A stretch of 64,000 bases of DNA. Source: Gammaproteobacteria bacterium (GTDB lineage: Bacteria > Pseudomonadota > Gammaproteobacteria > SpSt-1174). Shown one piece after another: positions 42,570-64,000 of this stretch (positions are counted from its first letter, which is position 1; each line of letters begins with the position of its first letter). Below the pieces are notes generated by a model. It saw nothing but the letters and a program-made list of their open reading frames with translations, had not been told where the DNA came from and ran no database searches. A program made the translations under genes and the position numbers. The stretch is taken from the NCBI GenBank assembly GCA_037388465.1, contig JARRKE010000002.1, forward strand, positions 1-64,000. The letters are read 5' to 3'.

Positions 42570-43395
42570 GGCGTTGCTGCCGCGCGAGGCCGAGGTCGTC
42601 GAGCGTATCCAGGAATCTTCCACCATTTTCACCCTGCGCCTGCGCATGACGGACACCGAGGCGCATGCGCGCTACGAGTTCGCGCCGGGCCAATTCAACA
42701 TGCTGTACCTGTACGGCGTGGGCGAGGTGCCCATCTCCATCGTTTCCGATCCCGAGGACGATCATCTGCTGGACCACACCATCCGTGCGCTGGGCCGCGT
42801 CACCGACGGACTGGCCAGGTTGGAGGCGGGCGCGCGCGTCGGCATCCGCGGTCCCTTCGGCCGCGGCTGGCCGCTGGCCGAGGCACGGGGCCGCGACGTG
42901 GTGCTGGTCACCGGCGGACTGGGCTGTGCGCCGGTGATGTCGGTGATCAATTACGTCACCAAACGGCGTGGGGAATTCGGCAGGCTGACCATCATTCAGG
43001 GCGTCAAGCATTCCGACGACCTGATCTGGCGCACCCAGTACGAACGCTGGGCCGCCCTGCCGCAGACCCAGGTGCTGCTGGCGGCCGACGTGGCCGGCCC
43101 GGGCTGGCACGGAGCGGAGGGCCCGGTCACGGTGCTGTTCGATCAGGCCGAGATCGATCCGGAACGGGCCGTGGTGATGATGTGCGGTCCGGAGCGCATG
43201 ATGCAGGCCTCCGCGCATCTGTTGCTTGAGCAGGGCATTCCCGCCGAATCGCTGTGGCTCAGCCTGGAGCGCAACATGCAGTGCGCGGTGGGTCATTGCG
43301 GCCATTGCCAGATGGGCCCGCATTTCGTGTGTAAAAACGGTCCGGTATTCAGCTGGCCCGAGATCAGTGACCTGTTCGGCACGCCGGGTTTCTGA
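42562..43395 (+). CDS. hydG: Group 3b hydrogenase, gamma subunit (FAD/NAD(P) diaphorase)
   Basis: 277 residues from ATG 42562, with GGAGG upstream. It is a ferredoxin-NADP-reductase-like fold: an FAD-binding barrel with [21 protein letters not shown], a nucleotide-binding [12 protein letters not shown], and a C-terminal 2Fe-2S site with cysteines in [19 protein letters not shown]. It exchanges electrons with NAD(P)H. The four-subunit order beta-gamma-delta-alpha is exactly that of Pyrococcus hydrogenase I and bacterial group 3b enzymes. Confidence 0.92.
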
Positions 43396-43415
43396 GGCGG
43401 CGAGGAGCGTGAGTC

Positions 43416-45983: not shown

Positions 45984-46106
45984 GTGCAGGCTTGGCCGTG
46001 TCATCGAAGCGGCATGGGCATGCTGGTAGACCGGTATCCGCCTGCCCGCGGTTTCTCCATCCGTTATGATGGATATCCATTTGCCGAAGACCCTCCCAGC
46101 GCGGAT

Positions 46107-48479
46107 ATGTCCTTGAGTATCGAGGAGAGCACGCCGGTTCCCGAATCCCCTGTCGCGGAAGGTCTGGCGGTGCGCGTGCGCGGCCTGGTGCAGGGCGTGG
46201 GCTTCCGGCCCCATGTGGCGCGACTGGCGCAGGCGCTGGGTGTCGACGGCGACGTGTGCAACGACGGCGAGGGGGTGTTGATCCACCTGTGGGCGACAGC
46301 GGCGGTCAGGGCCGCGTTTCTCGCCCGGCTCGAAGATGAGGCTCCGCCGCTGGCGCGCATCGAGGCGGTGGAGACGTGGCCGCTGCATGATACCCCGCCG
46401 CACGGTTTTTCCATCCGTACCAGCGAGCACGGCGCGGTGCGCACCGGCGTGGTCCCGGATGCGGCAACCTGCGACGCCTGTCTGCGCGAACTCTTCGATC
46501 CGGCGGACCGCCGTTACCGCTATCCCTTCATCAACTGCACCCACTGCGGACCGCGCTTGTCCATCCAGCGACAGGTGCCCTATGACCGGGCCGGGACCAG
46601 CATGGCCGGCTTTGTAATGTGCGACGCCTGCCGGCGCGAATACGAGGATGCCGGCGACCGCCGTTACCACGCCCAGCCCAACGCCTGTCCCGTATGCGGG
46701 CCGCGGGTGTGGCTGGAGCCGACCGCGGGTAACACGGCGCTCGAGGGAGAGGACGCCGTCGCGGCCGCCGCCACCTGGTTGCGGCAGGGAGCGATCCTCG
46801 CCGTCAAGGGGCTGGGCGGTTTTCACCTGGCCTGCGATGCCGCCAATGCGGCGGCGGTGAACCGGCTGCGCGCGGCCAAGCGGCGCTATGCCAAACCCTT
46901 CGCCCTGATGGCGCGTGATCCGGGCGTGATCCGGCGTTATGCCGACTGCGATGCAATCGAGGCGGGCCTGCTTGCGAGCCCGGCCGCGCCCATCGTCCTG
47001 TTGAACGCCAGGGAGGATGCCGCGTTGCCCGAGGGCATCGCGCCCGGCCAGGACGCGCTCGGTTTCATGCTGCCCTACACGCCGCTGCATCATCTGTTGC
47101 TGGCCGGGTTCGAAACGCCGCTGGTGATGACCAGCGGTAATCTGAGCGACGAGCCGCAGTGCATCGACAACGACGAGGCCCGCGAACGCCTGTCGCCGTT
47201 GGTGGACGGCCTGCTGCTGCACGATCGCGACATCGTCAACCGGGTGGATGATTCCGTGGTGCGGGTCGTGACCGGCAAGGCGCGGCTGCTGCGTCGCGCG
47301 CGCGGTTACGTGCCGGCGCCGTTGCCGCTGCCGCCCGGCTTTGAGCAGGCTCCACCGGTGCTGGCGCTGGGCGGTGAGCTCAAGAGCACGTTTTGCCTGT
47401 TTAAGGAGGGCCAGGCGATTCTGTCTCCGCATCTCGGCGACCTGGAGGATGCCCGGGTCCTGGCCGCCTACGAGGAGGTGCTGGACCGGTTCCAGGGCCT
47501 GTTCGACTTCCGGCCGGCCTGTCTGGCCGGCGATGCCCACCCCGGCTACCTGTCCACCCAACTGGGCAGGGACCGGGCCGGGCGCGACGGCCTGACCTTC
47601 ACGCCCGTTCAGCATCACCACGCTCATATCGCGGCCTGCCTGGCGGAAAATGGCTGGTCGCTGAACGCCGGGCCGGTGCTGGGGATCGCCCTGGACGGGC
47701 TGGGTTACGGCGAGGACGCCACCCTGTGGGGCGGCGAATTCCTGCGTGCGGATTATCGCGCCATGCATCGCCTGGCCGCGCTGCAGCCGGTCGCGCTGCC
47801 TGGCGGGGTGCGCGCCATCCTCGAACCCTGGCGGCTGACCTATGCCCAGCTGGTGCGATTGCCGGACTGGTCCGAACTGCGCGAACGGTACGCCTCGCTC
47901 GACCTGCTGCAGCGCCTCCAGGCCAAGCCGCTGTCCACCCTCGACGCCATGTTGGAGAAAGGGATAAACGCCCCGCTCAGTTCGGCCTGCGGGCGGCTGT
48001 TCGACGCGGTGGCGGCGGCGCTGGGGATTTGTTTCGACGTCATACATTACGAGGGTCAGGCGGCCATCGAACTGGAAGTGCTGGCACGCCGCGTCGGCAA
48101 CGAGCCAGGTGGTTATCCATTTGCACGCATCGATGGCGATCCGCCCCGGCTGGATCCGGCCCCGATGTGGGCTGCCCTGCTGGCCGACCTGGCCTCGGGC
48201 GTTAGCCGCGAGTGCATTGCATGGCGCTTTCATGCCGGGCTGCTGGACGCGCTCGCCGCACTGGCCGGCGAACTCGCCGCGGCGCAGCATCTGGACACCG
48301 TGGCACTGTCCGGCGGCGTGTTCCAGAACCGCCTGATGCTCGCCGGTCTGCAGGATCGGCTGGAACGCCTGGGCCTGCGGGTGCTGACTCACGCCCAGGT
48401 GCCGAGCAACGACGGCGGGGTGGCGCTGGGGCAGGCCGTGATCGCGGCGGCGCAACTGCTCGAGGCGCAGGGCTCATGA
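46107..48479 (+). CDS. hypF: HypF, carbamoyltransferase for cyanide ligand synthesis
   Basis: 790 residues from ATG 46107; an upstream GTG (45984) would add an unlike tail. Domains in order are acylphosphatase (VRGLVQGVGFRPHVARLA), two zinc-finger pairs (CDACLRELFD/CTHCGPR and CDACRREYED/CPVCGPR), a YrdC-type domain, and a C-terminal Kae1-like domain with HHHAHIAACLAE. It makes carbamoyl-AMP and passes the group to HypE, where it becomes the cyanide ligand of the iron. It heads the maturation block and overlaps hybE. Confidence 0.96.
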   Translation: MSLSIEESTPVPESPVAEGLAVRVRGLVQGVGFRPHVARLAQALGVDGDVCNDGEGVLIHLWATAAVRAAFLARLEDEAPPLARIEAVETWPLHDTPPHGFSIRTSEHGAVRTGVVPDAATCDACLRELFDPADRRYRYPFINCTHCGPRLSIQRQVPYDRAGTSMAGFVMCDACRREYEDAGDRRYHAQPNACPVCGPRVWLEPTAGNTALEGEDAVAAAATWLRQGAILAVKGLGGFHLACDAANAAAVNRLRAAKRRYAKPFALMARDPGVIRRYADCDAIEAGLLASPAAPIVLLNAREDAALPEGIAPGQDALGFMLPYTPLHHLLLAGFETPLVMTSGNLSDEPQCIDNDEARERLSPLVDGLLLHDRDIVNRVDDSVVRVVTGKARLLRRARGYVPAPLPLPPGFEQAPPVLALGGELKSTFCLFKEGQAILSPHLGDLEDARVLAAYEEVLDRFQGLFDFRPACLAGDAHPGYLSTQLGRDRAGRDGLTFTPVQHHHAHIAACLAENGWSLNAGPVLGIALDGLGYGEDATLWGGEFLRADYRAMHRLAALQPVALPGGVRAILEPWRLTYAQLVRLPDWSELRERYASLDLLQRLQAKPLSTLDAMLEKGINAPLSSACGRLFDAVAAALGICFDVIHYEGQAAIELEVLARRVGNEPGGYPFARIDGDPPRLDPAPMWAALLADLASGVSRECIAWRFHAGLLDALAALAGELAAAQHLDTVALSGGVFQNRLMLAGLQDRLERLGLRVLTHAQVPSNDGGVALGQAVIAAAQLLEAQGS

Positions 48480-48940
48480 CTACGCCGATGGTGCAGCGCC
48501 TGGTCGAGACCTTCGAGCGCATCCACCGCGAGCGGATGCGGGGACTGCCCATCGTGCATCCGGACCTCGAGGTCGAGGCGGTCGGGTTCCGGTCCTGGGA
48601 GGCGGGTGAGATCGGTGTGCTGATTACCCCCTGGTTCATGAACCTGACCTACCTGGTGCCGCCGCCGAACGGTTGGGATCAGCTGCCGCTGGGACACGTA
48701 CTGATCCTCGACTTTCCTGCCGGGCCGTATTCATTCGTTCTGGCCGAGGCGGAAGGGCTGGGGCGCTATCGCAACTGCGCCTTGTTCACCACCATGCAGC
48801 CGTTTGCCGATCGGGCCCAGGCGCGTGAAACGGCCGAGGCGGTCATGAAGGGGCTGTTTCTTGCCGCATCGCCCGAGCGATCCGGCGGCATGAGTCGGCG
48901 TGAATTCCTGCAGGGCGTGCTAAGGGGCGGGCGCAAGTGA
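48476..48940 (+). CDS. HybE/HupJ-type hydrogenase assembly chaperone
   Basis: 154 residues from ATG 48476, overlapping the hypF stop. The motif GVLITPWFMNLTYLVPP and PLGHVLILDFPAGPYSFVLAEAEGLG are characteristic of the [NiFe]-hydrogenase assembly chaperone HybE family. Such proteins bind the twin-arginine-exported hydrogenase precursor and check maturation. The likely client is therefore the Tat-exported HynS of the second hydrogenase, although the gene sits with the group 3b operon. Confidence 0.88.
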   Translation: MTTPMVQRLVETFERIHRERMRGLPIVHPDLEVEAVGFRSWEAGEIGVLITPWFMNLTYLVPPPNGWDQLPLGHVLILDFPAGPYSFVLAEAEGLGRYRNCALFTTMQPFADRAQARETAEAVMKGLFLAASPERSGGMSRREFLQGVLRGGRK

Positions 48941-50127
48941 GCGCCGCGCTGGAAGGACAACTTGAAATTATCATCGACTGGCGGGACGGCGTGGTACAGG
49001 ACGTGCACATCGCCTCCAGCCGGCCGGTGGGCCTGAGCCGGGCCTTTGCGGGAAAACCGGTCGACGAGGTGCTGGAGCATCTGCCGCGGCTTTATTCGTT
49101 GTGCGGCGTGGCGCAGGGTGTGGCGGCCCGGCTGGCCGCCGACGCGGCCCGGGGGTTGGCCACCGATGCGGCCACGCAGCGCGCCATGGGCGCGGCCGTA
49201 CTGGCCGAGACGGCCCAGGAACACCTGTGGCGGCTGCTGCTCGACTGGCCGATGCTACTGTGGAACGAGGCGCCGGATCCCCGGTGTTTGCGCGAGGTGC
49301 GCGGCCTGCTGCCGGCACTGATGGCGCAGCTGGCGGAAGGCGGGCAGGTGCATCGATTGAGCGGCGAACGCCTGTCCGCCGCCGGGCCGGCCGTGCGGGA
49401 GACGGCACGCCGTCTCGATGCGTGGCTGTCGGACTGGCTGTTCGGCATGCCGGCGGTCGACTGGCTGGAGCTGGACGCGGCTGCCGCCGCGCGTTGGGAG
49501 GCGGATTCTTCTGAGCAGGCCGCCCGGTTGCTGCGCGCGGTGCGCGAATCGGACCCCGGCATCTCCGGCGGCGGGTTCGAGCCGCTGCCGGTGCTCAAGG
49601 CCGAGGCGGTCGATGCCCGTCTGCACGCGGACGCCGCGGGGTTTGTCGCCAAGCCGGACTGGGAAGGCGTGCCGCGCGAGACCACGCCGCTGCAGCGGCA
49701 GTCGGGGCATGCGCGTGTCGCGGCGGCCGTGAGCGGACAGGGCAGCGGCGTTTATACCCGGCTGACGGCGCTGCTGGTCGAGCTGGCCATGCTGCCCGGG
49801 CGGCTGGACACGCTGTGCGCACCGGAGGTGGATGCCATGCCGGCGCTGTTGCAGGGTTCGGCCGTCGGGGAGGATGCCGGCATCGCCCAGGTGGAGGCGG
49901 CTCGGGGACGCCTGATTCACCGCGTGGCGGTGCGGGACGGGCGGGTAGATACTTATCAGATTGTTGCGCCGACGGAATGGAACTTTCATCCTGAAGGGGC
50001 CCTGTGGCAGGGGTTGTCCGGGCTGCGCGCCGCCGATGCGGAGGCCTTGCGGCGTCAGGCGGCGCTGTGGATTACCGCGATCGACCCCTGCGTACAGTAT
50101 CAACTGGAGATCAGGCACGATGCATGA
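48937..50127 (+). CDS. hupK: HupK-like hydrogenase expression/scaffold protein
   Basis: 396 residues from GTG 48937, coupled to hybE by overlap. It looks like a degenerate hydrogenase large subunit: LYSLCGVAQG stands where RICGxC would be, and the end DPCVQYQLEI keeps only the first cysteine of DPCxxCxxH. HupK proteins are thought to hold the Fe(CN)2CO unit during assembly of uptake hydrogenases, mainly under oxygen. It cannot bind nickel as a real subunit would. Confidence 0.8.
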   Translation: MSAALEGQLEIIIDWRDGVVQDVHIASSRPVGLSRAFAGKPVDEVLEHLPRLYSLCGVAQGVAARLAADAARGLATDAATQRAMGAAVLAETAQEHLWRLLLDWPMLLWNEAPDPRCLREVRGLLPALMAQLAEGGQVHRLSGERLSAAGPAVRETARRLDAWLSDWLFGMPAVDWLELDAAAAARWEADSSEQAARLLRAVRESDPGISGGGFEPLPVLKAEAVDARLHADAAGFVAKPDWEGVPRETTPLQRQSGHARVAAAVSGQGSGVYTRLTALLVELAMLPGRLDTLCAPEVDAMPALLQGSAVGEDAGIAQVEAARGRLIHRVAVRDGRVDTYQIVAPTEWNFHPEGALWQGLSGLRAADAEALRRQAALWITAIDPCVQYQLEIRHDA

Positions 50128-50461
50128 GATGTCCCTGTGCGAGAGCGTCCTGCAGATCATCGAGCAGCAGGCACAGACGAATGGCTTTCAGCGGGTGAAG
50201 ACAGTGCGCCTGGAGATCGGCGCCCTGGCGGGGGTCGAGCTCGAGGCGATGCGCTTCGGGTTCGACGCCGTGACTCGCAAAAGCATCGCCCAAGGCGCTA
50301 CACTCGACATCATTGAACTGCCGGGACGCGCGTGGTGTCTGACCTGTGGTCAATCGGTTGAAATATCCCAGCGTTACGATCCCTGCCCTGCGTGTGGCAG
50401 TTACACATTGCAGGTGACGGGCGGCGACGAGTTACGGGTCAAGGACCTCGAAGTCGAGTAG
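50120..50461 (+). CDS. hypA: HypA, nickel-insertion metallochaperone
   Basis: 113 residues. The N-terminal MHEMSLCESVLQII supplies the nickel-binding His2, and a zinc site is formed by CLTCGQS and CPACGS. It hands nickel to the large subunit together with HypB. Its start lies inside the end of hupK (8-base overlap). A 150-base gap with short inverted repeats, including ACACCG-CAC-CGGTGT near 50490, follows before hypB. Confidence 0.95.
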   Translation: MHEMSLCESVLQIIEQQAQTNGFQRVKTVRLEIGALAGVELEAMRFGFDAVTRKSIAQGATLDIIELPGRAWCLTCGQSVEISQRYDPCPACGSYTLQVTGGDELRVKDLEVE

Positions 50462-50611
50462 GCCTGCGCAAGACTGCAGCGTTCCACGACACCGCACCGG
50501 TGTCTCTTTGTGTAAACGAAGGCGGCAGGCCTGGATTCGCGTACGCCGGCAACGCGATGATGGTACCGCCGGTATGCGGTTTGGTGTTTTTCGAGTGAGG
50601 GAGGTGTCACC

Positions 50612-51541
50612 ATGTGTACGGTTTGTGGCTGCGGTGAAGGCGAAGTGAAGGTCGAAGGACACGAGCACGATCATCACCACGATCACGCCCACCCTCATCA
50701 TCACGAGCATCACCATCATGATGACCACGGTCATGGTCATCATGCCCATGATCACGACCATGACGGGGATCGTCAGGATCTGCATTTCGGTCTGGGCCCC
50801 GCGCATGCCCATGCCCCGGGGCTCGATCAGGGACGCATGGTGCAGATCGAGCAGGACATCCTGGCCAAGAACAACGGCTACGCGGAAGGCAATCGCCGCT
50901 ACTTTTCCGAACACGGCGTCCTGGCCCTGAATCTGGTCTCCAGTCCCGGTTCGGGCAAGACCACGCTGCTGACCAAAACCATCGAGATGCTCAAATCGCG
51001 TCTGCCGATCGCGGTCATCGAGGGCGACCAGCAGACGGTGATGGATGCCGACCGCATTCGTGCGACGGGCGTGCCCGCACGGCAGATCAATACCGGCAAG
51101 GGCTGCCATCTGGATGCGCATATGGTAGGGCATGCCCTGGAAGGCCTGGGGCTGGACGACAACGGGCTGCTGTTTATCGAAAACGTCGGCAACCTGGTCT
51201 GTCCCGCCGGGTTCGATCTCGGTGAGGCGCACAAGGTCGCCATCCTTTCCGTCACGGAAGGGGAGGACAAGCCGATCAAGTATCCCGACATGTTCCACGC
51301 GGCCGATTTGATGCTGCTCAACAAGACCGACCTGCTGCCGCATGTCGATTTCGACGTGGACCGCTGCATCGAATACGCGCGGCGCGTGAATCCGCGCATC
51401 GAAGTGATTCAGCTGTCCGCCCGTTCCGGTGAAGGCATGGAGCACTGGCTGGAGTGGATCGAGGGAGAACGCAGCACGATGCTGCGCGATCGTCTCGCCA
51501 GTCTGGAAGCCGCCATGGACGCGATCAGGACCCAGCTTTGA
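50612..51541 (+). CDS. hypB: HypB, nickel-storing GTPase with histidine-rich region
   Basis: 309 residues. The N-terminal CTVCGCG is a high-affinity nickel site. Residues 17-51 hold 21 histidines among acidic residues, able to store many nickel ions as in rhizobial HypB. The GTPase domain has the P-loop [22 protein letters not shown] and the NKTDLL base-recognition motif. It drives nickel insertion through HypA. A GGGAGG ribosome site precedes the ATG. Confidence 0.96.
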
Positions 51542-51576
51542 CGGCCGGTTCCGATCCGACACTCAGGAGAGACCGC

Positions 51577-52635
51577 ATGCGTTACCTCGATCAGGCACTG
51601 CAGGGCATCCCCCGTCGTCCCCTGGCGGTACTGCTGCTCACGCTGCTGGCCTTCAACGTCCTGTCCTGGCTCGCCGCCTTCGGTCTCGCCGCCATCCAGC
51701 CCAGCATTCTCGCTCTTGCCGGTCTGGCCTGGGTGTTCGGTGCGCGGCATGCCTTCGACGTCGATCATATCGCCGCCATCGACAACGTCACCCGCAAGCT
51801 GCGCCAGGAAGGCAAACGTCCCGTTGCGGTCGGTTTCTTTTTCGCCCTCGGCCATTCCACCGTGGTGATCGCGCTGTCGGCCGTGGTCGCGCTCGGCGCG
51901 CGCGGCCTGAAAACGCAGTTCGGCGAGTTCAGTCATTTCGGCGGCATTTTCGGCACCAGCGTTTCGGCCACCTTCCTGACCCTGATCGGCCTGATCAACC
52001 TGGTGGTCCTGTGGCAACTGATCAAGGCCTGGCGAGACCACCGCCGTGGACGCGATACCCAGGCGCTGCGCGAAGAGGACATCAATGTGCTGCTCGATCA
52101 GCGCGGCCTGTTCGCCAACGTATTCCGCTTTTTGTTCCGGCGCGTGAACCGGAGCTGGCACATGTATCCGCTGGGCGTGCTGTTCGGCCTCGGCTTCGAT
52201 ACCGCCACCGAGATCGCCATCCTCGGCATTTCCGCAGCCCTGGCGACCACCTCCGATTTTCCGCTCTGGGGCATCATGATCTTTCCGCTGTTGTTTACCG
52301 CGGGCATGACCCTGCTGGATTCGCTGGACGGGCTGGTCATGCTGCGCGCCTATCAGTGGGCCCTGTCCGATGCGCTGCGCAGGCTGTACTTCAACACCAT
52401 CATTACCGCCATGGCGGTGGGGGTCGCGTTGATCGTCGGAACCCTGGAGTGGTTGCAGATCCTGGGTCCGCGTCTGGGCGGCCGGGGGCCGTTCTGGGTC
52501 TGGCTGGACGGCCTGGATTTCGGCACCATCGGTTTCGCGGTGGTACTGATCATGCTCGTCACCTGGGCGTTCGCCATCGCCTATTACCGTTTGCGCGTCG
52601 CGCCGCGTGCCGCATTGACGGCCGACGGCGACTGA
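51577..52635 (+). CDS. Nickel/cobalt permease (NiCoT, HoxN/HupN family)
   Basis: 352 residues from ATG 51577, with AGGAGA upstream. Eight membrane helices. The signature RHAFDVDHIAAIDN in helix II is the metal-recognition HX4DH motif; LGFDTATEIA and LFTAGMTLLDSLDG are the other family signatures. It imports nickel at high affinity at the cytoplasmic membrane. Its place between hypB and hypC is direct evidence for a role in supplying the two hydrogenases. Confidence 0.94.
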   Translation: MRYLDQALQGIPRRPLAVLLLTLLAFNVLSWLAAFGLAAIQPSILALAGLAWVFGARHAFDVDHIAAIDNVTRKLRQEGKRPVAVGFFFALGHSTVVIALSAVVALGARGLKTQFGEFSHFGGIFGTSVSATFLTLIGLINLVVLWQLIKAWRDHRRGRDTQALREEDINVLLDQRGLFANVFRFLFRRVNRSWHMYPLGVLFGLGFDTATEIAILGISAALATTSDFPLWGIMIFPLLFTAGMTLLDSLDGLVMLRAYQWALSDALRRLYFNTIITAMAVGVALIVGTLEWLQILGPRLGGRGPFWVWLDGLDFGTIGFAVVLIMLVTWAFAIAYYRLRVAPRAALTADGD

Positions 52636-52660
52636 CCACGCGTATCAGGAGATTCACTTC

Positions 52661-52933
52661 ATGTGCCTGGGCATTCCCGGACAAATCGTTGCAGTTATCG
52701 ATGAGGCAAACCTGCTGGCGACGGTGGATGTCAGCGGGGTGCGGCGCGAAGTGAACATCGCCTGCATCGTCGACGACGGCCATTCCGCGACGGATTGCAT
52801 CGGAGACTGGGTGCTGGTGCACGTGGGATTCGCCATGAGTCGTATCGACGCCGAGGAAGCCAGAAACACCCTCGAGTTGCTCGACCAGCTGGATGAACTC
52901 CAGAACGAGATGGAGGCGTTCGGGCGGGCCTGA
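52661..52933 (+). CDS. hypC: HypC, hydrogenase maturation chaperone (main copy)
   Basis: 90 residues starting MCLGIPGQIVAV. Cys2 is the conserved residue that binds iron with HypD, and the OB-fold core is intact (GDWVLVHVGFAMSRID). It carries the Fe(CN)2CO unit and binds the large-subunit precursor. An AGGAG site lies upstream. A second, shorter HypC is encoded at 56866-57105. Confidence 0.95.
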   Translation: MCLGIPGQIVAVIDEANLLATVDVSGVRREVNIACIVDDGHSATDCIGDWVLVHVGFAMSRIDAEEARNTLELLDQLDELQNEMEAFGRA

Positions 52934-52959
52934 CCGGCGGCTTGCGCCCGTTACCAGCG

Positions 52960-53625
52960 ATGGACGACGGTCTTAATTCCCTTTATCCGTTTCTCGGCGG
53001 CGGCCGTAAGAACCCCGAGCGGGAGGCGAATTCGCTGCTCGAATCGGTACGCGAAAAGGCCGCCGAAAGCGTACAGGCAAAACAGACATTCTTTGCCGAA
53101 CAGGGCGAGGCCCTGGTGGCGGCTGCACGTGGATTGGCCGATGTCTATCGCCGCAAGGGCCGGCTGTTTACCATGGGTAACGGCGGTTCCAGCTGCGACT
53201 CGTCGCATATCGCGGTGGAGTTCCTGCATCCGGTGACGGCCGGGCGGCCGGCCCTGCCGGCGGTCAACCTCTCGGCGGACAATGCCATGCTGACGGCGGT
53301 CGGTAACGATGTCGGCTTTCGGCACGTGTTCGTGCGTCAGTTGGTGGCGCTGGCCCGTTCGGGCGATGCGCTGCTCGGCGTCTCGACCAGCGGCAATTCG
53401 GACAACCTGCTGGCCGCCTTCGCCAAGGCGAAGGAACTGGGCCTGCTGACCATCGGGCTGGCGGGCATGGATGGCGGCGAGATGGCGCGTGCCGGGCTCG
53501 ATCACTGCCTGGTGGTGCACAGCGACAGCATTCATCGCATTCAGGAGTGCCAGCTGGCCTCGTACCACATTCTTTGGGATCTGGTGCATACGCTGCTTGC
53601 AGACGATCGCGGCCCGTCGGCATGA
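52960..53625 (+). CDS. SIS-domain protein, phosphoheptose-isomerase-like, in the hyp operon
   Basis: 221 residues from ATG 52960 (TTG 52942 is an alternative; neither has a strong ribosome site). A sugar-isomerase fold is seen: helices, then TMGNGGSSCDSSHIAVEFLHP, then GVSTSGNSDNLLAAF, as in GmhA. GmhA makes D-glycero-D-manno-heptose-7-phosphate for lipopolysaccharide. Here the gene is embedded between hypC and hypD, so a role in hydrogenase biogenesis or control is possible but unknown. Confidence 0.85.
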   Translation: MDDGLNSLYPFLGGGRKNPEREANSLLESVREKAAESVQAKQTFFAEQGEALVAAARGLADVYRRKGRLFTMGNGGSSCDSSHIAVEFLHPVTAGRPALPAVNLSADNAMLTAVGNDVGFRHVFVRQLVALARSGDALLGVSTSGNSDNLLAAFAKAKELGLLTIGLAGMDGGEMARAGLDHCLVVHSDSIHRIQECQLASYHILWDLVHTLLADDRGPSA

Positions 53626-53708
53626 CGCCGTATCAAAACAAACAATCAACCCATGTCGGCAGCTGATACGCAGCGATCCGGCCGGCCTGGCAATATTTGC
53701 GGAATAGA

Positions 53709-54857
53709 ATGAAATACGTCGACGAATTCAGGGACCCGGACAAGGCACGACGTCTGATCAAGGACATCGAGCGCCTGCTGGCGCGCAACACCACCGTACG
53801 GCATCGCCCGCTGCAGTTGATGGAGGTGTGCGGCGGGCACACGCACGCCATTTTCAAGTTCGGCCTCAAGAACATGCTGCCTGACGCCATCGAACTGGTG
53901 CATGGTCCCGGCTGCCCGGTCTGCGTGCTGCCCATGGGGCGGGTCGACGACTGCGTGGCGATCGCCGAGCGCCCCGAAGTGATCTTCACCACCTTCGGCG
54001 ACGCCATGCGCGTGCCGGGTTCGCGCAAAAGTCTGATGCAGGCCAAGGCGGACGGCGCCGACGTGCGCATGGTGTATTCGCCGCTGGATGCGCTCAAGAT
54101 TGCGCGGGAAAACCCCGATCGCGAGGTCGTGTTCTTCGGGCTTGGTTTCGAAACCACCATGCCCAGCACCGCCTTGACGGTGCTGGCGGCCGAGCAGCAG
54201 GGTATTAATAACTTTTCCCTGTTCTGCAATCACATCACCATCATCCCGACCATCAAGGCGATCCTCGACTCCCCCGACATGCAGATCGACGGATTTCTGG
54301 GGCCGGGGCATGTCAGCCTGGTGATCGGTTCGCAGCCCTACCGGTTCATCGCCGAGCAGTATCACCGGCCGCTGGTGATCGCCGGCTTCGAACCGCTGGA
54401 TATCCTGCAGTCGATCTGGATGGTGATCAAACAGCTGGACGAGGGGCGCTGCGAAATCGAAAACCAGTATCGCAGGCTGGTGCCCGAGGACGGCAACCCG
54501 CAGGCGCTGGGTGCCGTGAACGAGGTGTTCGAGCTGCGCGAGTTCTTCGAGTGGCGCGGCCTGGGGTCCATCGACCATTCCGGGGTGCGCCTGCGCGACG
54601 CCTACGCCGCTTTCGACGCGGAGCGAAAGTTCGCGCTGCCCAATGTGCGTATTGCCGATCCCAAGGCCTGCCAGTGCGGCGAAGTGCTCAAGGGCGTCAT
54701 CAAGCCGCGCGAGTGCAAGGTATTCGGTACGGCCTGTACCCCGGAAACACCGCTGGGAGCGTTGATGGTCTCCAGCGAGGGCGCCTGTGCGGCGTATTTT
54801 CAATACGGCGCCAAGACGCGCCAGGTGGACGAGCCGGCACCGGAGACCGTTTCGTGA
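53709..54857 (+). CDS. hypD: HypD, iron-sulfur scaffold for the Fe(CN)2CO unit
   Basis: 382 residues from ATG 53709. Hallmark motifs are MEVCGGHTHAIFKFG, VHGPGCPVCVLP, FGLGFETTMPST and the C-terminal cluster cysteines in ACQCGEVLKG and KVFGTACTPETPLGALMVSSEG. HypD with HypC accepts cyanide groups from HypE and assembles the iron ligand set. It ends inside the hypE start (4-base overlap). Confidence 0.96.
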   Translation: MKYVDEFRDPDKARRLIKDIERLLARNTTVRHRPLQLMEVCGGHTHAIFKFGLKNMLPDAIELVHGPGCPVCVLPMGRVDDCVAIAERPEVIFTTFGDAMRVPGSRKSLMQAKADGADVRMVYSPLDALKIARENPDREVVFFGLGFETTMPSTALTVLAAEQQGINNFSLFCNHITIIPTIKAILDSPDMQIDGFLGPGHVSLVIGSQPYRFIAEQYHRPLVIAGFEPLDILQSIWMVIKQLDEGRCEIENQYRRLVPEDGNPQALGAVNEVFELREFFEWRGLGSIDHSGVRLRDAYAAFDAERKFALPNVRIADPKACQCGEVLKGVIKPRECKVFGTACTPETPLGALMVSSEGACAAYFQYGAKTRQVDEPAPETVS

Positions 54858-55891
54858 GCCGTCGTTTGAAGGCCGCCACCATCACGCTGGCACACGGCAG
54901 CGGTGGCAGCGCCATGCGCGACCTGATCGAGGACGTGATGGTCGGCAGCTTCGACAACACCTGGCTGTCGCAGCTGGAGGATCAGGCGCGTCTGGACCTG
55001 AAGGACATCACGCCGCAGGGCGACCGGCTGGCATTCACTACCGACAGCTACGTCGTCGACCCGCTGGTATTCCCGGGCGGCGATATCGGCACCCTGGCCG
55101 TCAACGGCACGGTCAACGATCTGGCCGTGGGCGGAGCCAGGCCGCTGTTTCTCAGCTGCGGTCTGATCCTGGAGGAGGGGCTGTCGGTGGAGTTGCTGCG
55201 CGACATCGTCGCCAGCATGCGCGCGGCGGCTCTTGATGCCGGCGTCACCATCGTCACCGGCGATACCAAGGTCGTGCCGCGCGGCAAGGGCGACAAGGTG
55301 TTCATCAACACCGCCGGTATCGGCGTGATCCCGGCCGGGGTGAACATCTCGGCCGCGCGCGCCGCGCCGGGCGACGTGGTGATCGTCAACGGCTACCTGG
55401 GCGACCACGGGGCGGCGATCCTCAAGGCGCGCGGTGAGCTGGCCCTGGAAACCGACATCCAAAGCGACTGTCAGGCGCTGCATGGCCTGATCGAAGCCAT
55501 GCTGGCGGCCTGTCCCGACATCCACTGCCTGCGCGACGCGACACGCGGCGGGGTGGCAACCGTGCTGAACGAGTTCGCCGAGAGTGCGGCGGTGGGGATT
55601 CGCGTCGACGAGCAACACCTGCCCATTCGCGGCGAAGTGCGCGGCGTGTGCGAGATTCTCGGTCTCGATCCGCTTTACCTGGCCAACGAGGGCAAGCTGG
55701 TGGCCGTGATCCCCCCGACCCATGCCGAGGCGGTGCTGCAGGCCATGCGCGAACATCCGGCGGGTCGGGACGCTGTGGTCATCGGCGAGGTGGTGAGCGC
55801 CCCTGCGAACAGGGTGGTCATGCAGACCCAATTCGGCGGCGAGCGCATCGTCGATCGCCTGATCGGCGAACAATTGCCGCGCATCTGCTAG
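54854..55891 (+). CDS. hypE: HypE, thiocarbamate dehydratase
   Basis: 345 residues from GTG 54854. The PurM/AIR-synthetase fold is seen in AHGSGGSAMRDL, TDSYVVDPLVFPGGDIGTLAVNGTVNDLAVGGA and RDATRGGVATVLNEFA. The protein ends PRIC, whose last cysteine accepts the carbamoyl group from HypF and is dehydrated to thiocyanate. Completes the Hyp set (A, B, C, D, E, F all present in this window). Confidence 0.96.
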   Translation: MSRRLKAATITLAHGSGGSAMRDLIEDVMVGSFDNTWLSQLEDQARLDLKDITPQGDRLAFTTDSYVVDPLVFPGGDIGTLAVNGTVNDLAVGGARPLFLSCGLILEEGLSVELLRDIVASMRAAALDAGVTIVTGDTKVVPRGKGDKVFINTAGIGVIPAGVNISAARAAPGDVVIVNGYLGDHGAAILKARGELALETDIQSDCQALHGLIEAMLAACPDIHCLRDATRGGVATVLNEFAESAAVGIRVDEQHLPIRGEVRGVCEILGLDPLYLANEGKLVAVIPPTHAEAVLQAMREHPAGRDAVVIGEVVSAPANRVVMQTQFGGERIVDRLIGEQLPRIC

Positions 55892-57242: not shown

Positions 57243-57270
57243 TTGAGAGTAAGAGAAATCGGCGTATACT
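57243..57270 (+). promoter_or_regulatory. Sigma-70 promoter of the Isp-type hydrogenase operon
   Basis: TTGAGA (57243-57248), a 16-base spacer and TATACT (57265-57270) closely match consensus. Transcription would begin near 57277, giving a 60-base leader before the protease gene at 57338. The rest of the divergent gap (57106-57242) shows no clear sigma-54 site. Confidence 0.7.
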
Positions 57271-57337
57271 CGAATGGCGTTTGCCGACGGGTCATAGGCC
57301 TGATTCGCGCGCGCCGAAAACACTCTGGAGCCTTGGG

Positions 57338-57802
57338 ATGGATACGCTGATACTCGGGCTGGGCAACACGCTGCTGATGGATGAAGGCGTTGGTGTGCAT
57401 ATCGTGCGCCGGCTTGCCGAAGAAGGCGCGGACGACCAAATCCAGTACATGGACGGCGGCACCCTGAGCTTCACCCTGGCCGGTCCGCTTTACGAGGCCA
57501 AGCGCCTGATCGTCGTCGACACCGCGGACCTGGATGCCGAACCCGGCACCATGCAGTGTTTCGAAAACGGCGATATGGACCATTTCGTGGCCACCGGCAA
57601 GAAGAGCAGCGTCCATGAAGTCGGTCTCAACGATCTGCTCTCGATCACCCGGCTCGAAGGCCATCTCCCGGAACCCCGTGCATTGATCGCGATCCAGCCG
57701 AAGATGTTCGACTGGGGTGAGGAACCCACTCCCGAACTGAACGCCGTTATTCCCCAGGCCTGCAATCTGGTTCGTCAGACATTGGAACGCTGGGACGCAT
57801 GA
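57338..57802 (+). CDS. Hydrogenase maturation protease (HupD/HyaD/HynD type)
   Basis: 154 residues from ATG 57338. The start LILGLGNTLLMDEGVGVHIVRRL has the conserved acidic nickel ligand; DTADLDAEPG and SVHEVGLNDLL carry the other sites. It cuts the 15-residue tail of HynL after the last histidine. It is the first gene of the hydrogenase operon here, an unusual order since proteases commonly follow the structural genes. It overlaps hupH by 4 bases. Confidence 0.93.
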   Translation: MDTLILGLGNTLLMDEGVGVHIVRRLAEEGADDQIQYMDGGTLSFTLAGPLYEAKRLIVVDTADLDAEPGTMQCFENGDMDHFVATGKKSSVHEVGLNDLLSITRLEGHLPEPRALIAIQPKMFDWGEEPTPELNAVIPQACNLVRQTLERWDA

Positions 57803-58224
57803 GTCTTCAGGATATTCCAGTCTCTGTCGTACCCGCCGAACCCGCACCGGTACCCGACGGCCCCACCGGCATGGCGGATGCCGTGATGCGCGAGATCGAA
57901 TCCCATCTCGAGCAGCTGGTGGAATCCGGCACGGCGAACGCCGTCGACCTGAAAAGCCTGCCGTTGACGGCGGCCGACCTCGATATCCTGCGCGACAAGC
58001 TGGGGCAGGGCGAGGTCAACGCCCGGGTCGACGCGGCCGGTCTGACCGAGATCCGCGAAACGGCCTATCCGGGCGTCTGGTGGCTGACCTATTACGAAAT
58101 GGACGGCGAGGCCATTCTCGACGTCATCGAGGTGACCCGTTGCCCCGAGATGCTGCAAACGCATCCCGAAGATATACGCACCGCGTTACGACGCTTCAAA
58201 CAGGCCGACCCCGGGTCGTCCTGA
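57799..58224 (+). CDS. hupH: HupH/HyaF-type hydrogenase expression protein
   Basis: 141 residues, corresponding to a single HupH domain. The sequence LPLTAADLDILRDKLGQGEVNARVDAAGLTEIRETAYPGVWWLTYY and a final IEVTRCPEMLQTHPEDI is the family core. HupH/HyaF helps mature the small subunit of exported hydrogenases, probably at its iron-sulfur clusters. It is shorter than HyaF of E. coli (about half). Followed 37 bases later by hynS. Confidence 0.85.
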   Translation: MSLQDIPVSVVPAEPAPVPDGPTGMADAVMREIESHLEQLVESGTANAVDLKSLPLTAADLDILRDKLGQGEVNARVDAAGLTEIRETAYPGVWWLTYYEMDGEAILDVIEVTRCPEMLQTHPEDIRTALRRFKQADPGSS

Positions 58225-58261
58225 AATCTTCCGATTACCCCCGCAGATGGAGGAACGCCAC

Positions 58262-59326
58262 ATGAATAACGAAAAGACACTCGGCGAGCATCTAAGCGAA
58301 TACGGAGTAAGCCGGCGAACATTTCTGAAGTTCTGCGCCGCCATGTCTTCGGTACTCGCCCTGCCGCCGACCCGCGCCGCCGAGATGGCCGACATGCTGA
58401 GCACCAAGCCGCGCCAGTCGGTTATTTACCTCTCGTTTCAGGAATGCACCGGTTGTCTGGAGTCGCTGACGCGCTCCTTCTCCCCGACCATCCAGTCCCT
58501 GCTGTTCGACGTCATTTCGCTGGACTACAACGACACCCTGATGGCCGCCGCCGGCGAGCAGGCCGAACAGGCCCGCGAGCAGGCCATGGAAAAGAACAAG
58601 GGCAAGTATCTGGTCGTGGTGGACGGTAGCATCCCCACCGGCGACGGCGGCGTATATCACACCGCCGCCGGCCATACCGCGCTCGACACCCTGCACCGGG
58701 TCGCCAAGGATGCCGCCGCCCTGGTTGCGGTCGGCAACTGCGCGTCGTTCAGCGGTATCGCGGGCGCCAAACCGAATCCCACCGGCGCCAAGGCCCTGAT
58801 GGACATCATCACCGACAAGCCGGTCATCAACGTGCCGGGGTGTCCGCCGATTCCCGAAGTGATGGCCGGGACGCTGGCGTATGTGGTGACCTTCGGCAAG
58901 CTGCCCGAACTGGACAACCTCAAGCGCCCGCTGACCTTCTTCGGCAACACCATTCACGACCGCTGCTACCGCCGGCCGTTTTACGATCAGGGCAAGTTCG
59001 CCAAGACCTTCGACGATGAAGGTGCCCGCGCCGGCTGGTGTCTGTACGAACTGGGCTGCAAGGGGCCGACCACCTACAACAGCTGCGCCACCACCAAATG
59101 GAACGGCGGGGTCAGCTTCCCCATCCAGTCCGGTCATGGGTGCCTGGGCTGCTCCGAACCCAACTTCTGGGATGCCGGCGGGTTCTACAATCCGCTCTCC
59201 ACCGGGCACTGGGGGACGGCGGAGGGCATCGCCCTGGCGGCGGCCGGCGGCGTGGCCGTCGGCGCGGCGGCTGCGGCTTTGGCCCGCGCACGACAGAAGA
59301 AATTTACCGAGGAGGAAAACAAATGA
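58262..59326 (+). CDS. hynS: Isp-type [NiFe] hydrogenase, small subunit (Tat-exported)
   Basis: 354 residues from ATG 58262 with GGAGG upstream. A Tat motif SRRTFLK is at residues 17-23. The proximal-cluster cysteines are Cys62 and Cys65 (ECTGCLES). A glycine stands at the position where oxygen-tolerant enzymes have an extra cysteine, so the standard, oxygen-sensitive form is expected. Distal and medial cluster ligands lie in IHDRCYRR, WCLYELGCKGPTTYNSC and GHGCLGCSEPNFWD. An alanine/glycine-rich C-terminal helix anchors it to the membrane. Group 1e by context. Confidence 0.95.
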   Translation: MNNEKTLGEHLSEYGVSRRTFLKFCAAMSSVLALPPTRAAEMADMLSTKPRQSVIYLSFQECTGCLESLTRSFSPTIQSLLFDVISLDYNDTLMAAAGEQAEQAREQAMEKNKGKYLVVVDGSIPTGDGGVYHTAAGHTALDTLHRVAKDAAALVAVGNCASFSGIAGAKPNPTGAKALMDIITDKPVINVPGCPPIPEVMAGTLAYVVTFGKLPELDNLKRPLTFFGNTIHDRCYRRPFYDQGKFAKTFDDEGARAGWCLYELGCKGPTTYNSCATTKWNGGVSFPIQSGHGCLGCSEPNFWDAGGFYNPLSTGHWGTAEGIALAAAGGVAVGAAAAALARARQKKFTEEENK

Positions 59327-59976
59327 CCTTGCTTGATTTTGCCCGTGGTCCCGGGCTGCAATGGTCGCTGACCATTCTGGTACTCGGCATCCTCTGGCGC
59401 ATTGCCGGCGTCTTGTTCCTGCCGCGCAAGCGCGATCTGAGCGAACCGCGCGGTACGGGTACCTGGCGCGGCGCGATCGGCACGATCTTCTCGCGTTCCT
59501 GGCCGAATGCTGCCTTCCGCTCCCGGGTCCTGTTCTCCACCCTGTTGAGTTATGTGTTCCACATCGGCCTGTTCGTGGTGGTGTTCTTCTTTGTGCCGCA
59601 CATCCTGCTCATCAAGGACATTACCGGCCTGTCCTGGCCGGGGCTGCCAAACAGCATCATCTACTTCGCCGGCGTATTGACCATCGCCGCCATGGTGGTG
59701 CTGCTGGTCCGCCGCTGGACGCACCCGGTGTTGCGGGTGATCTCGAATTTCGACGATTACTTCAGCTGGCTGGTCACCATCCTGCCGGTGCTTACCGGGC
59801 TCATGACCTTTTCCCACCTGGCCCTGCGCTACGAAACCATGCTCGCACTGCATATCCTGAGCGTGGAACTGCTGTTTGTCTGGCTGCCTTTCTCCAAGCT
59901 GGGCCACAGCTTTATGGTATTCATTTCACGCGGCACGGAGGGCGCCGCGTTCGCGCGTAAAGGAGCCCAGTCATGA
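59323..59976 (+). CDS. isp1: Isp1, membrane cytochrome b-like subunit
   Basis: 217 residues from ATG 59323, overlapping hynS by 4 bases. Five membrane helices resemble NarI/DsrM-type cytochrome b. Histidines that could ligate haem lie in SYVFHIGLF, FSHLALRYE, LALHILSVE and SKLGHSFM. It would carry electrons from HynS across to Isp2 and the quinone pool. The order hynS-isp1-isp2-hynL is the hallmark of Isp hydrogenases of purple sulfur bacteria such as Thiocapsa and Allochromatium. Confidence 0.92.
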   Translation: MTLLDFARGPGLQWSLTILVLGILWRIAGVLFLPRKRDLSEPRGTGTWRGAIGTIFSRSWPNAAFRSRVLFSTLLSYVFHIGLFVVVFFFVPHILLIKDITGLSWPGLPNSIIYFAGVLTIAAMVVLLVRRWTHPVLRVISNFDDYFSWLVTILPVLTGLMTFSHLALRYETMLALHILSVELLFVWLPFSKLGHSFMVFISRGTEGAAFARKGAQS

Positions 59977-61334
59977 GTGCAACCGATATCGATACCGAAC
60001 ATCCGCTGGATACCGAATCCGCCCGCTTCAGCGTCAAGAAGCCTGAGGTCCGTTACGACAAGCAGGGTGACATGAACGACGACGAACGCGTTCATCTCGC
60101 CATGAAGAGTTTCGTCAAGGACTTCGGGGCGACTGCCGCCTCCCACATGGAGGCCTGCGTCCACTGCGGCCAGTGCGCCGAGGCCTGCCATTTCTACGTG
60201 CAGACCAACGACCCGAAGTACACGCCGATCTGGAAGCTGGAGCCGTTCAAGCAGGCCTACAAGCGGGAGATGGGCCCGTTCGCGCCGGTCTACCGCGCGC
60301 TCAATCTGAAGCATAAGGTGACGACCGACCAGCTCAAGCAATGGCAGGAACTGGTCTACGACTCCTGCACCATGTGCGGACGCTGCTCGCTGGTCTGCCC
60401 CATGGGCATCGACATCGCCACCCTGGTCGGCCAGGCACGCCACGGCATGTTCAAGGCCGGCCTGGTGCCGCATGAACTGTGGGCCGTGGCCGAGCGCGCC
60501 GAACGCGAGGGCAGCCCGCTGGGCGCCAAGCCCGACGTGTTCGCGGACCGTGTGGAATGGATGGGCGACGAAAACGACGTCGAAATGCATATCGACGAGG
60601 AACAGGCCGACGTCGTGCTGGCGATGTCCTCCATCGAGATCATGAAATATCCCAAGGCCATCGCCGATACGGCCAAGGTGATGAACACCCTGGGGCTTTC
60701 CTGGACCTTCCGCACCGACGGTTACGAGGCCACCAACTTCGGCATGCTGTCCGGCAACAGCGAGTGGCAGCGCGACATGAGCATGAAGCTCATCGAGGCC
60801 TGCATCAAGATCGGCGCCAAGTTGCTGGTGTTGCCCGAATGCGGCCATGCCTACGGGGCCATGCGCTGGAGCGGTGCCAACGTCTACGGCAAGCCGTTGC
60901 CGTTTCGTGTGCAGCATATTTCCGAATTCCTGGCGGAAAACGTGCGCAACGGCAAGCTCAAGCTCAAGAAGGTCAACAAGTCGGTCACCTTCCATGACCC
61001 GTGCCAGGTGTCGCGCCGCGGCGGTGCCATCCAGGCCCCGCGCGATGTATTGAACGCGCTGGGCGTCGATCTGCGGGAAATGAAGGATTCGCACGGCTTC
61101 AACTGGTGCTGCGGCGGCGGTGGCGGTGTGGTGACGATTCATCGCGCCGATCCGGTCCGTTACAAGGCCTTCGAGATCAAGATGCATCAGGTCGAGGAAA
61201 CCCAGGCCGAAATGCTGATCTCGAGCTGCTCCAACTGCCGTCAGACCTTCGACGATGGCCAAGAACACTTCCATTGGGACAAGACCATGCACAGCCTGCT
61301 GGAGCTGGTCGCCGACAATATTGCGGAGGCTTAA
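59973..61334 (+). CDS. isp2: Isp2, heterodisulfide-reductase-like (HdrD-type) subunit
   Basis: 453 residues, cytoplasmic. Two N-terminal 4Fe-4S motifs, CVHCGQCAEAC (about 62-72) and CTMCGRCSLVC (about 132-142), are followed by a CCG-type domain: FHDPCQVSRRGG, FNWCCGGGGGV and SSCSNCRQ. This mirrors HdrD and DsrK. It links the membrane cytochrome to a sulfur- or quinone-side reaction, so hydrogen oxidation may reduce a disulfide or sulfane carrier. It lies 4 bases before hynL. Confidence 0.93.
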   Translation: MSATDIDTEHPLDTESARFSVKKPEVRYDKQGDMNDDERVHLAMKSFVKDFGATAASHMEACVHCGQCAEACHFYVQTNDPKYTPIWKLEPFKQAYKREMGPFAPVYRALNLKHKVTTDQLKQWQELVYDSCTMCGRCSLVCPMGIDIATLVGQARHGMFKAGLVPHELWAVAERAEREGSPLGAKPDVFADRVEWMGDENDVEMHIDEEQADVVLAMSSIEIMKYPKAIADTAKVMNTLGLSWTFRTDGYEATNFGMLSGNSEWQRDMSMKLIEACIKIGAKLLVLPECGHAYGAMRWSGANVYGKPLPFRVQHISEFLAENVRNGKLKLKKVNKSVTFHDPCQVSRRGGAIQAPRDVLNALGVDLREMKDSHGFNWCCGGGGGVVTIHRADPVRYKAFEIKMHQVEETQAEMLISSCSNCRQTFDDGQEHFHWDKTMHSLLELVADNIAEA

Positions 61335-61338: not shown

Positions 61339-63087
<1,749 letters not shown>

Positions 63088-63091
63088 AGCC

Positions 63092-63457
63092 ATGCCGGCG
63101 GATGACAGCCAACCGGAGTTCGGGCTCAGCGACGCGATCAATCGCGTCCTGAGCGCCGAACAGTCGGCGACCGACGCCGTCGAAACGGCGCGTGACGAGG
63201 CTGCCGATCTGCTCAAACAGGCGCGTGCGACCGCGCGCCGGATCGAATCCCGTGCTGATGCGCGTATCCGGGCGCTTCACCAGGGACGGGAAAGCCGGCT
63301 GGACCAGTTGCTGGCCGATATCCGCGCCGAGACCGAGGCAGTCCGCGAGGCACCGCTGATGAGCGAACACGATGCGGACTATGTGCGTCGTGCCGCCTCG
63401 GAAATGGCGGATGAACTGCTCGGCGTCAGCAGGGGAGGAAAGAAGGCCGCCTCGTGA
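63092..63457 (+). CDS. Coiled-coil protein, possible V-type ATPase subunit G/H
   Basis: 121 residues, rich in Ala, Glu and Arg, with one long helix (about residues 13-85) of heptad character, as in the peripheral-stalk subunit G/H of V-type ATP synthases. No signal or membrane segment. The start follows hynL by 4 bases. The next gene overlaps its stop by 4 bases and can be read as another V-ATPase-like subunit. Low-complexity coiled coils are easily misassigned. Confidence 0.5.
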   Translation: MPADDSQPEFGLSDAINRVLSAEQSATDAVETARDEAADLLKQARATARRIESRADARIRALHQGRESRLDQLLADIRAETEAVREAPLMSEHDADYVRRAASEMADELLGVSRGGKKAAS

Positions 63458-64000
63458 GTATCGTCAATGATGCGGCGTATACCGAGGCACGCATTCTCGG
63501 GCGCCTTTCCAAGCTGCCTTCAGAGCAGGACTGGTCGTATCTCAATCCCGTCAACGACTACGCGCATTTCCTGGCAAGCGCGCGTGCCACGCCGTTGGGT
63601 CCCTGGGTCCAGCTACTGCAGCCCGATGACGGTGCGCATGCAATCGAGCGACGGCTGCGCGCCCGCTATCTCGCTGAAGTCGAAACGCTGAGCCACTGGA
63701 CGGTCGAGGGAACTGAGGATGCCGTGGCGTGGTGCCGATATCTGCCCTATCTGGGCGTAATCGAGCACCTGGCGCGTGAGGGGGAGGTCTACAGCTGGAT
63801 GCGTGAAGATCCGTTTCTCGATGCCTGGATCAGCGGCGAGGATCGCGGTGGACTGAGTGATACATTCAGCTCACCGCTGGCCGCCGATGTCGGGATACGC
63901 GAACTCTGGCTCGCTGGCCTGCGCTCCCGGCTGCCCGCGTCCCTGGTCGAATCGGTCGCAGGAAACACACTGCTGGAGCGCGTCTCCCTGGCCTTGCATA
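63454..64000 (+). CDS. Partial gene at the window edge, possible V-type ATPase subunit C (AC39)
   Basis: 182 codons from GTG 63454, open to the window end. The protein is helical, with ARILGRLSKLPSEQDW and many tryptophans (SHWTVE, WCRYLPYLGVIEHLA). The pattern, short helices beginning near YTEARILGRL and an ERRLRARYLAEVETL helix, recalls subunit C (V0d/AC39) of V-type ATPases, but I cannot confirm it. It is translationally coupled to the coiled-coil gene. Its remainder lies beyond position 64000. Confidence 0.4.
   Translation, partial: MSIVNDAAYTEARILGRLSKLPSEQDWSYLNPVNDYAHFLASARATPLGPWVQLLQPDDGAHAIERRLRARYLAEVETLSHWTVEGTEDAVAWCRYLPYLGVIEHLAREGEVYSWMREDPFLDAWISGEDRGGLSDTFSSPLAADVGIRELWLAGLRSRLPASLVESVAGNTLLERVSLALH

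Follow-up and report, generated by a model that had tools for sequence, protein, structure and literature searches.

In the gammaproteobacterial DNA analyzed here, an Isp-type [NiFe] hydrogenase, an apparently H+-type V/A-ATPase of its own and a P-type cation pump would form one unit, the most likely function of which is ATP synthesis, a reading to which we assign a probability of roughly 0.55. The window, that is, the whole stretch of 64,000 nucleotides that was analyzed, corresponds to bases 1-64000 of a contig of 106,206 bases in a genome of 2.79 Mb and 151 contigs, and it ends inside the second gene after the hydrogenase. Based on the window alone, the sequence-only reading had suspected an archaeal-type rotary ATPase at this place, and reading on along the same contig reveals a complete V/A-type operon in the order G-C-I-K-F-E-A-B-D, followed by a P-type cation ATPase gene, all on the plus strand. 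The subunits which that suspicion leads one to expect past base 64000 (A, B, I, K, and D) are all five present on the same contig and strand, and the possibility that the downstream genes encode something other than V-type subunits was put to the test and did not materialize. The view that the hydrogenase and V-ATPase operons are one continuous unit is supported by the spacing of the genes and by the conservation of the junction in relatives, from which their cotranscription is inferred; the uptake direction of the hydrogenase and the synthesis of ATP by the V-ATPase, both part of the initial proposal, are inferences too.

The hydrogenase genes, all on the plus strand, start with a HycI-type maturation protease (57332..57802; PF01750, E 4e-20; TIGR00072 over cut-off) and a HupH-type hydrogenase expression protein (57799..58224; PF04809, E 5e-31). 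Then comes HynS, the small subunit of a group 1 [NiFe] hydrogenase (58247..59326; TIGR00391 over cut-off, PF14720, PF01058), whose N-terminus is Tat-like, with the NCBIfam Tat model just below cut-off. Isp1, a membrane cytochrome b-like subunit (59323..59976), is recognized by its position between HynS and Isp2, being its profile matches (TmcC-like, E 3e-35; HmcE-like, E 4e-29; PF02665, E 1.6e-4) all below curated cut-offs. Isp2 (59973..61334) is an Fe-S protein with a CCG domain, similar to DsrK/HmcF/TmcB, with PF02754 and PF13183 over cut-off and the NCBIfam DsrK model at E 6e-68, below cut-off. The large subunit HynL (61339..63087; PF00374, E 8e-237) contains in its translation RICGVC and DPCIACAVH, presumably the motifs that mark it as such. 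Location of isp1 and isp2 between the small- and large-subunit genes makes this enzyme, as predicted from its genes, an Isp-type hydrogenase (HynS-Isp1-Isp2-HynL), and gene order rather than a HydDB classification would place it in subgroup 1e. In the accessible text of one study, what distinguishes 1e/1g is the placement of Isp1 and Isp2 between small and large subunit (PMC11018855). A promoter-like site before hycI (TTGAGA-16-TATACT, 57243..57270, plus strand) is weak evidence, since chance alone would give 2.9 such sites in L002:1000-18500, where three occur, and none of these three lies between hynL and the G gene.

Further upstream, the plus strand of the window encodes a group 3-like (sulfhydrogenase-like) cytosolic [NiFe] hydrogenase with FAD/NAD, small, and large subunits (42538..45501; NCBIfam sulfhydrogenase models, below cut-off), and a run of hydrogenase maturation and nickel genes (45984..55891). 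This run comprises HypF (45984-48479), a large-subunit-like protein that we take to be HupK-like (48937-50127), a NicO nickel permease (51454-52635), HypC (52661-52933), HypD (53697-54857), and a HypE-like frame with AIRS domains (54701-55891). Also, DsrE-like, HdrB/C-like, lipoate-binding GcvH-like, and lipoate synthase-like genes stand in a row at window positions 3340-15672, which may be an sHdr-type sulfur oxidation run. The same genome carries a second Isp1-Isp2 set (L117, G000:C81:1-8701), on a short contig that has no V-ATPase; genes that look like those of a formate dehydrogenase, a label given by resemblance to locus L113, precede it.

The stop codon of hynL (TGA at 63087) and the ATG of the next ORF at 63092 leave a gap of 4 nt, and this ORF of 121 aa (63092..63457, plus strand) overlaps by 4 nt the following GTG ORF (63454). 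It had been described as G/H-like, in agreement with its top Pfam match, V-ATPase G (PF16999, E 8.1e-6; 26.8 bits, cut-off 28; PF03179 second), and its top NCBIfam match, V-type subunit H (PRK08404, E 7.5e-5; 22.9 bits, cut-off 107), both of them below the curated cut-offs. Behind this putative peripheral-stalk gene lie, on the same strand, the gene for the probable subunit C (63454..64182, of which the window holds the 5' part, to 64000), subunit I (64179-66014; PF01496, 67.7 bits, cut-off 30.7), subunit K (65995-66357; PF00137, 69.7 bits, cut-off 24), subunit F (66369-66686; PF01990, 33 bits, cut-off 23.5), subunit E (66683-67306; PF01991, 13.8 bits, below the cut-off of 24.2), subunit A (67303-69072; PRK04192, 729 bits, cut-off 470), subunit B (69062-70465; PRK04196, 640 bits, cut-off 349), and subunit D (70458-71051; PF01813, 89 bits, cut-off 25.7). 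Six subunits (A, B, D, F, I, and K) exceed the Pfam cut-offs, A and B also pass the NCBIfam subfamily cut-offs, and the peripheral stalk subunits E and G fit by position and coiled-coil look, with scores below the Pfam cut-offs. The P-type cation ATPase (71076-73757, equivalent to L002:15077-17758, plus strand) starts 24 nt past D; it is IIA-like, with Pfam domains over cut-off and the NCBIfam Ca2+-ATPase models below cut-off. From hycI to this last gene, the intergenic gaps range from -20 to +24 nt. Subunit A carries a GGFGTGKT loop, which we assume to be a feature of the catalytic subunit. An alternate (N-type) F1Fo ATPase was considered and rejected, since A and B score far higher with the V/A models than with the alternate F1Fo models. 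Likewise, a plasmid origin is unsupported, because window positions 63001-64000 have zero matches in the plasmid collection. As for a possible second ATPase on the contig, the match to the ATP-synthase alpha/beta family at 102716, the surrounding flagellar genes, in the gene run as read, point to FliI.

Identification of subunit C relies on structure. The ORF at 63454, 242 aa at full size, has no match in Pfam or NCBIfam. For subunit C, a search of the PDB by sequence was likewise negative, as was a comparison of profiles with a canonical C (4.5% probability). The protein that was folded is a relative from the window's own family (L052), 39% identical to that of the window, with 43 homologs in the alignment, and the model has a mean pLDDT of 88.5 and a pTM of 0.86. 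The 19 best structural matches of this fold are all V-ATPase C/d chains with Z values of 11.1-12.5, the next unrelated one being at 5.4; for example, Z is 11.7 against 6ly9_M and 11.3 against 1v9m. A Foldseek search with the same fold gives a weak signal, with a best E of 0.034 and V-ATPase chains within the first 13 rows. Because the fold of the relative matches V-ATPase C/d chains, the gene after G would encode a subunit C strongly diverged in sequence, in agreement with the C-like character first ascribed to it.

The junction between hynL and G is not peculiar to one genome. In three members of the window's family, which belong to two genera, it is preserved with a spacing of 4, 5, and 5 nt. 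In one of these places (G002) a relative of G with 38% identity follows the hynL tail, the only part of hynL present, at the start of the contig, and in another (G001) there is a coiled-coil-like ORF with no Pfam match. In a fourth lineage (L070, the same contig as L112 in G375), a coiled-coil-like gene, with no Pfam match as well, starts 3 nt after hynL. This gene (L070:3116-3430) encodes a protein of 104 aa whose similar proteins make up a small cluster of 6, and the other V-ATPase genes of that locus lie beyond the hydrogenase operon, in divergent orientation.

Scanning with subunit I retrieved 117 relatives, of which 80 loci were kept and compared with the hydrogenase, Isp, and Hyp proteins of the window. 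Fifteen match and 14 are counted: L071 was left out, its Isp2-like match being weak (24%) and downstream, and identical stretches (L052 and L102, on the same contig in G002; L070 and L112, in G375) were each counted once. The same hynL-G junction is found in L052, from the window's family; HupSL is divergent from the ATPase in five loci (L023, L034, L043, L075, and L095), and an Isp hydrogenase operon diverges from subunit I in L070 (G375). In four loci hyp genes lie upstream on the same strand (L026, L037, L049, and L080), in two Isp1-Isp2 alone is directly upstream (L057 and L099), and in L029 a group 3-type hydrogenase is present, its nearest gene ending 4.4 kb before subunit I. The remaining 65 of the 80 V-ATPase loci have no hydrogenase-related gene in the available stretch, which extends at least 4 kb upstream of subunit I in 54 of the 80, including 11 of the 14 linked ones. 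Isp1-Isp2 stands without hydrogenase genes beside the V-ATPase of L057 and L099, and for L057 a convincing [NiFe] hydrogenase is missing from the whole genome, where PF00374 reaches at best E 2.8e-7 over 66 positions.

Other families present arrangements of their own. In G350 the V-ATPase is inserted among the hydrogenase genes, HypD-HypF-HypE-[G-C-I-K-F-E-A-B-D]-HycI-HupH-HynS-Isp1-Isp2-HynL, with 144 nt from D to hycI. In G360 the order is HycI-HupH-HynS-Isp1-Isp2-HynL-HupE-G-C-I-K-E-A-B-D, where G is assigned by position, subunit F was not identified, and hynL and hupE are 111 nt apart; here subunit C is canonical (PF01992), and A and B are 44% and 51% identical to those of the window, which corresponds to another V-ATPase subfamily. 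In G135 the place of the hydrogenase is taken by a formate dehydrogenase: genes for its alpha, Fe-S, and gamma subunits (alpha matching TIGR01591 below cut-off, gamma matching TIGR01583 above it) precede Isp1-Isp2-G-C-I-K-F-E-A-B-D, with 308 nt from isp2 to G, a canonical subunit C, and again a V-ATPase of the other subfamily. These gaps of 144, 111, and 308 nt are looser than the hynL-G junction. The G135 contig (L113, G135:C9) has another match to V-ATPase D near 18340, some 3 kb past the first one.

When subunit I is placed in a tree of 85 rows, built by a quick method, the linkage labels are spread over several clades. Linked against unlinked requires 10 changes, an overcount since short contigs were scored as unlinked, and the upstream-hyp label requires 3 changes and is not clustered, with 140 of 500 shuffles as low. 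The three rows with the hynL junction fall in one clade (98), which also contains L021, whose contig starts at subunit C, and L031, with a long branch and no hydrogenase match in 3.4 kb upstream. An accidental arrangement of a single genome is rejected, considering that the junction is kept in relatives and the link recurs in other families. Many of the linked loci come from metagenome assemblies, and misassembly is unlikely as their cause because the same order appears in separate genomes.

The association was also approached at the level of whole genomes. In a sample of 369 genomes drawn evenly from the class, which, judged by named loci, includes Burkholderiales-type organisms, V-ATPase D over cut-off was found in 43, PF14720 in 74, and Isp1 in 46; matches below the family cut-off (G171, G019, and G580) were left out of these V-ATPase and PF14720 counts and of the V-ATPase count in the phylum sample described below. 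Isp1 is present in 30 of the 43 genomes with V-ATPase against 16 of the 326 without it (odds ratio 45, p 1.7e-22), and PF14720 in 29 of 43 against 45 of 326 (p 3.4e-13). Among the 74 genomes with PF14720, the V-ATPase accompanies 27 of the 41 that have Isp1 and 2 of the 33 that do not, so the co-occurrence centers on Isp1 and not on group 1 hydrogenases in general. Both V-ATPase subfamilies, separated at 110 bits of the subunit D score, take part (Isp1 in 17/25 and 13/18). Counted by family, the figures are 19/31 against 10/~137, with p near 2e-10 (family totals of 160, 168, and 182 were tried for this sample). The p-values are too small, since neither genomes nor families are independent; still, the contrast is large.

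No more than 15 kb separates V-ATPase D from Isp1 in G000, G001, G135, G350, G360, and G375, and adding G002, with the hynL tail at the start of its contig, 7 of the 30 genomes that have both are linked, in five families, where a hand estimate (30 kb in ~3.5 Mb per pair) expects well under one. In the other 23 the two were not seen within 15 kb, many of the contigs being short. Thirteen of the 43 genomes with V-ATPase have no Isp1 match, and in one genome of the class (G028) the V-ATPase is present with no hydrogenase match. A second sample of 383 genomes from the phylum was searched for V-ATPase, and Isp1 was sought in the 31 positive genomes (the window's own excluded): it was found in 8 of the 31, a figure for positive genomes only and so with no contrast to negative ones, and in 2 of 16 of the commonest family, f214. 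In 7 of 8 Magnetococcales genomes examined (16 such loci are in the scan), PF00374 is absent, G102 being the full match. Given these last results, the association is shown for one class only.

Regarding the coupling ion, subunit K is a single hairpin with EGIAIY around the carboxylate, and EGIxxY is invariant in 68/68 aligned copies of the c subunit from 86 loci searched. One carboxylate per two-helix hairpin is also the arrangement of V/A enzymes that synthesize ATP. The sodium motif of the c subunit given in the accessible part of the Thiohalobacter thiocyanaticus study is ESTxxY (PMC6504805). A Na+ V-ATPase was accordingly rejected, and since the c subunit does not carry that published motif, the ion is likely H+. 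The V-type enzyme is a second ATPase beside the F-type: contig C20 of the window's genome carries an operon for an F-type ATP synthase, and the F-type gamma subunit occurs in 43 of 43 V-ATPase-containing genomes of the class sample.

Based on these observations, H2 would be oxidized at the outer (periplasmic) face by HynS-HynL, or formate in relatives, and the electrons would cross the membrane via Isp1 to quinone or pass to a cytoplasmic acceptor at Isp2. The modest proton-motive force so obtained would be exchanged with ATP by the second, V-type H+-ATPase, which would make ATP under low-energy, oxygen-poor conditions, leaving the F-type to serve high-energy respiration. Synthesis is favored by the single carboxylate per hairpin and by the grouping of V-type ATPases with hydrogenases in the Riftia symbiont. 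The opposite direction is conceivable but unlikely: the V-ATPase would hydrolyze ATP and pump H+, and electrons would be pulled outward from Isp2 to Isp1 and released as H2 or formate, the set acting as a redox valve. H2 and formate are the usual products of reverse electron transport, and enzymes for both accompany the Isp-V-ATPase set; moreover, the F-type synthase in all 43 genomes means that the V-type is not needed as sole synthase, and the available part of the Riftia study brings up the evolution of H2 when energy is limiting (PMC11636981). Against this direction speaks the hairpin of K with its one carboxylate, as already mentioned.

Extending the preferred reading, ATP synthesis coupled to the Isp-type hydrogenase, Isp1-Isp2 might be a portable electron-transfer unit, with a hydrogenase or a formate dehydrogenase outside, that has repeatedly recruited a V-type H+-ATPase and so provided two bioenergetic gears, a tentative generalization that falls a little short of even odds. 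If it were true, many Gammaproteobacteria would run the F-type enzyme with aerobic respiration, and Isp with the V-type and H2 or formate at the thermodynamic limit. It could instead be thought that there is no energetic link and that the genes are stacked behind one promoter by a common anoxic, sulfidic lifestyle. Lifestyle and kinship can produce co-occurrence, the joint presence of V-ATPase and Isp1 in a genome is much commoner than their adjacency, and the P-type ATPase is in the row too; nonetheless, shared regulation alone appears rather improbable, more so than an energetic link in either direction, because five families of the class sample and two V-ATPase subfamilies show adjacency, arranged in several ways, and because the co-occurrence is centered on Isp1. 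That the V-ATPase uses ATP to pump ions and so balance pH or cations, working with the P-type ATPase located 24 nt past D and unrelated to hydrogen, is very improbable, since this leaves its repeated siting in hydrogenase and formate dehydrogenase clusters unexplained, although relatives of the P-type ATPase (29-63% identity) are also observed some kb from the V-ATPases of L039, L057, L064, L092, and G001.

Each part described here is of a known kind, whereas neither the linkage nor its specificity for Isp1-Isp2 turned up in the literature searched: among the titles and opening lines of abstracts of the matches listed, a full-text search, covering few subscription papers, gave no report of gene linkage between V-ATPase and hydrogenase. 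The accessible sections of the sources call V-type ATPases rare in Proteobacteria (PMC6504805) and propose for them roles in nitrate or calcite inclusions, proton pumping, and energy (PMC4530308). The link to Isp1-Isp2 would give these enzymes a testable role, and the puzzling Isp module an energetic partner; its recurrence in several families suggests that a second ATP machine serves the hydrogen or formate metabolism of these bacteria. In the available text on archaeal Isp-type enzymes, a model has the electrons of H2 reach quinone by way of Isp1, and a cytoplasmic acceptor of low potential by way of Isp2 (PMC11018855). The nearest published sign of linkage, within the accessible text, would be the co-expression reported for the Riftia symbiont, where hydrogenases 1e and 3b group with V-type ATPases and the F-type with the Calvin cycle, and where Hyd1e increases under limitation of sulfide and oxygen (PMC11636981). 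The same two kinds of hydrogenase as in the window's genome and a V-type ATPase stand there apart from the F-type; however, the evidence is an expression network in one symbiont, and the part of the article available contains no gene linkage (PMC11636981). The linkage reported here offers an explanation for that pattern, in which V-type ATPases follow the hydrogenases and not the F-type enzyme (PMC11636981).

Thiohalobacter thiocyanaticus is likewise a gammaproteobacterial sulfur oxidizer with a V-type H+ ATPase, although in this case it is partnered with a Na+ F-type ATP synthase, and the word hydrogenase is absent from the portion of the main text available (PMC6504805). With respect to the Tmc, Hmc, and DsrMK complexes of sulfate reducers, the resemblance resides in Isp1, similar to TmcC/HmcE, and in Isp2, similar to DsrK/HmcF/TmcB, whereas the matches to TmcC/HmcE and DsrK are all below curated cut-offs and, unlike in those complexes, no multihaem cytochrome gene is seen among the genes of the operon. 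TmcC/HmcE and DsrK/HmcF/TmcB are transmembrane redox proteins. Thiocapsa and other purple sulfur bacteria have an Isp-type (group 1e) hydrogenase that shares the order HynS-Isp1-Isp2-HynL, but here a V-ATPase operon begins 4 nt later, and membership in 1e is by gene order. Finally, the V/A-ATPase of the Thermus thermophilus kind shares subunits A, B, D, F, I, and K, as judged by the models, subunit C, as judged by the fold of a relative, and the one-hairpin c subunit, whereas the enzyme described here differs in its gene order (G-C-I-K-F-E-A-B-D), in a short and sequence-divergent C, and in being sited behind a hydrogenase, in a host that also has an F-type synthase.
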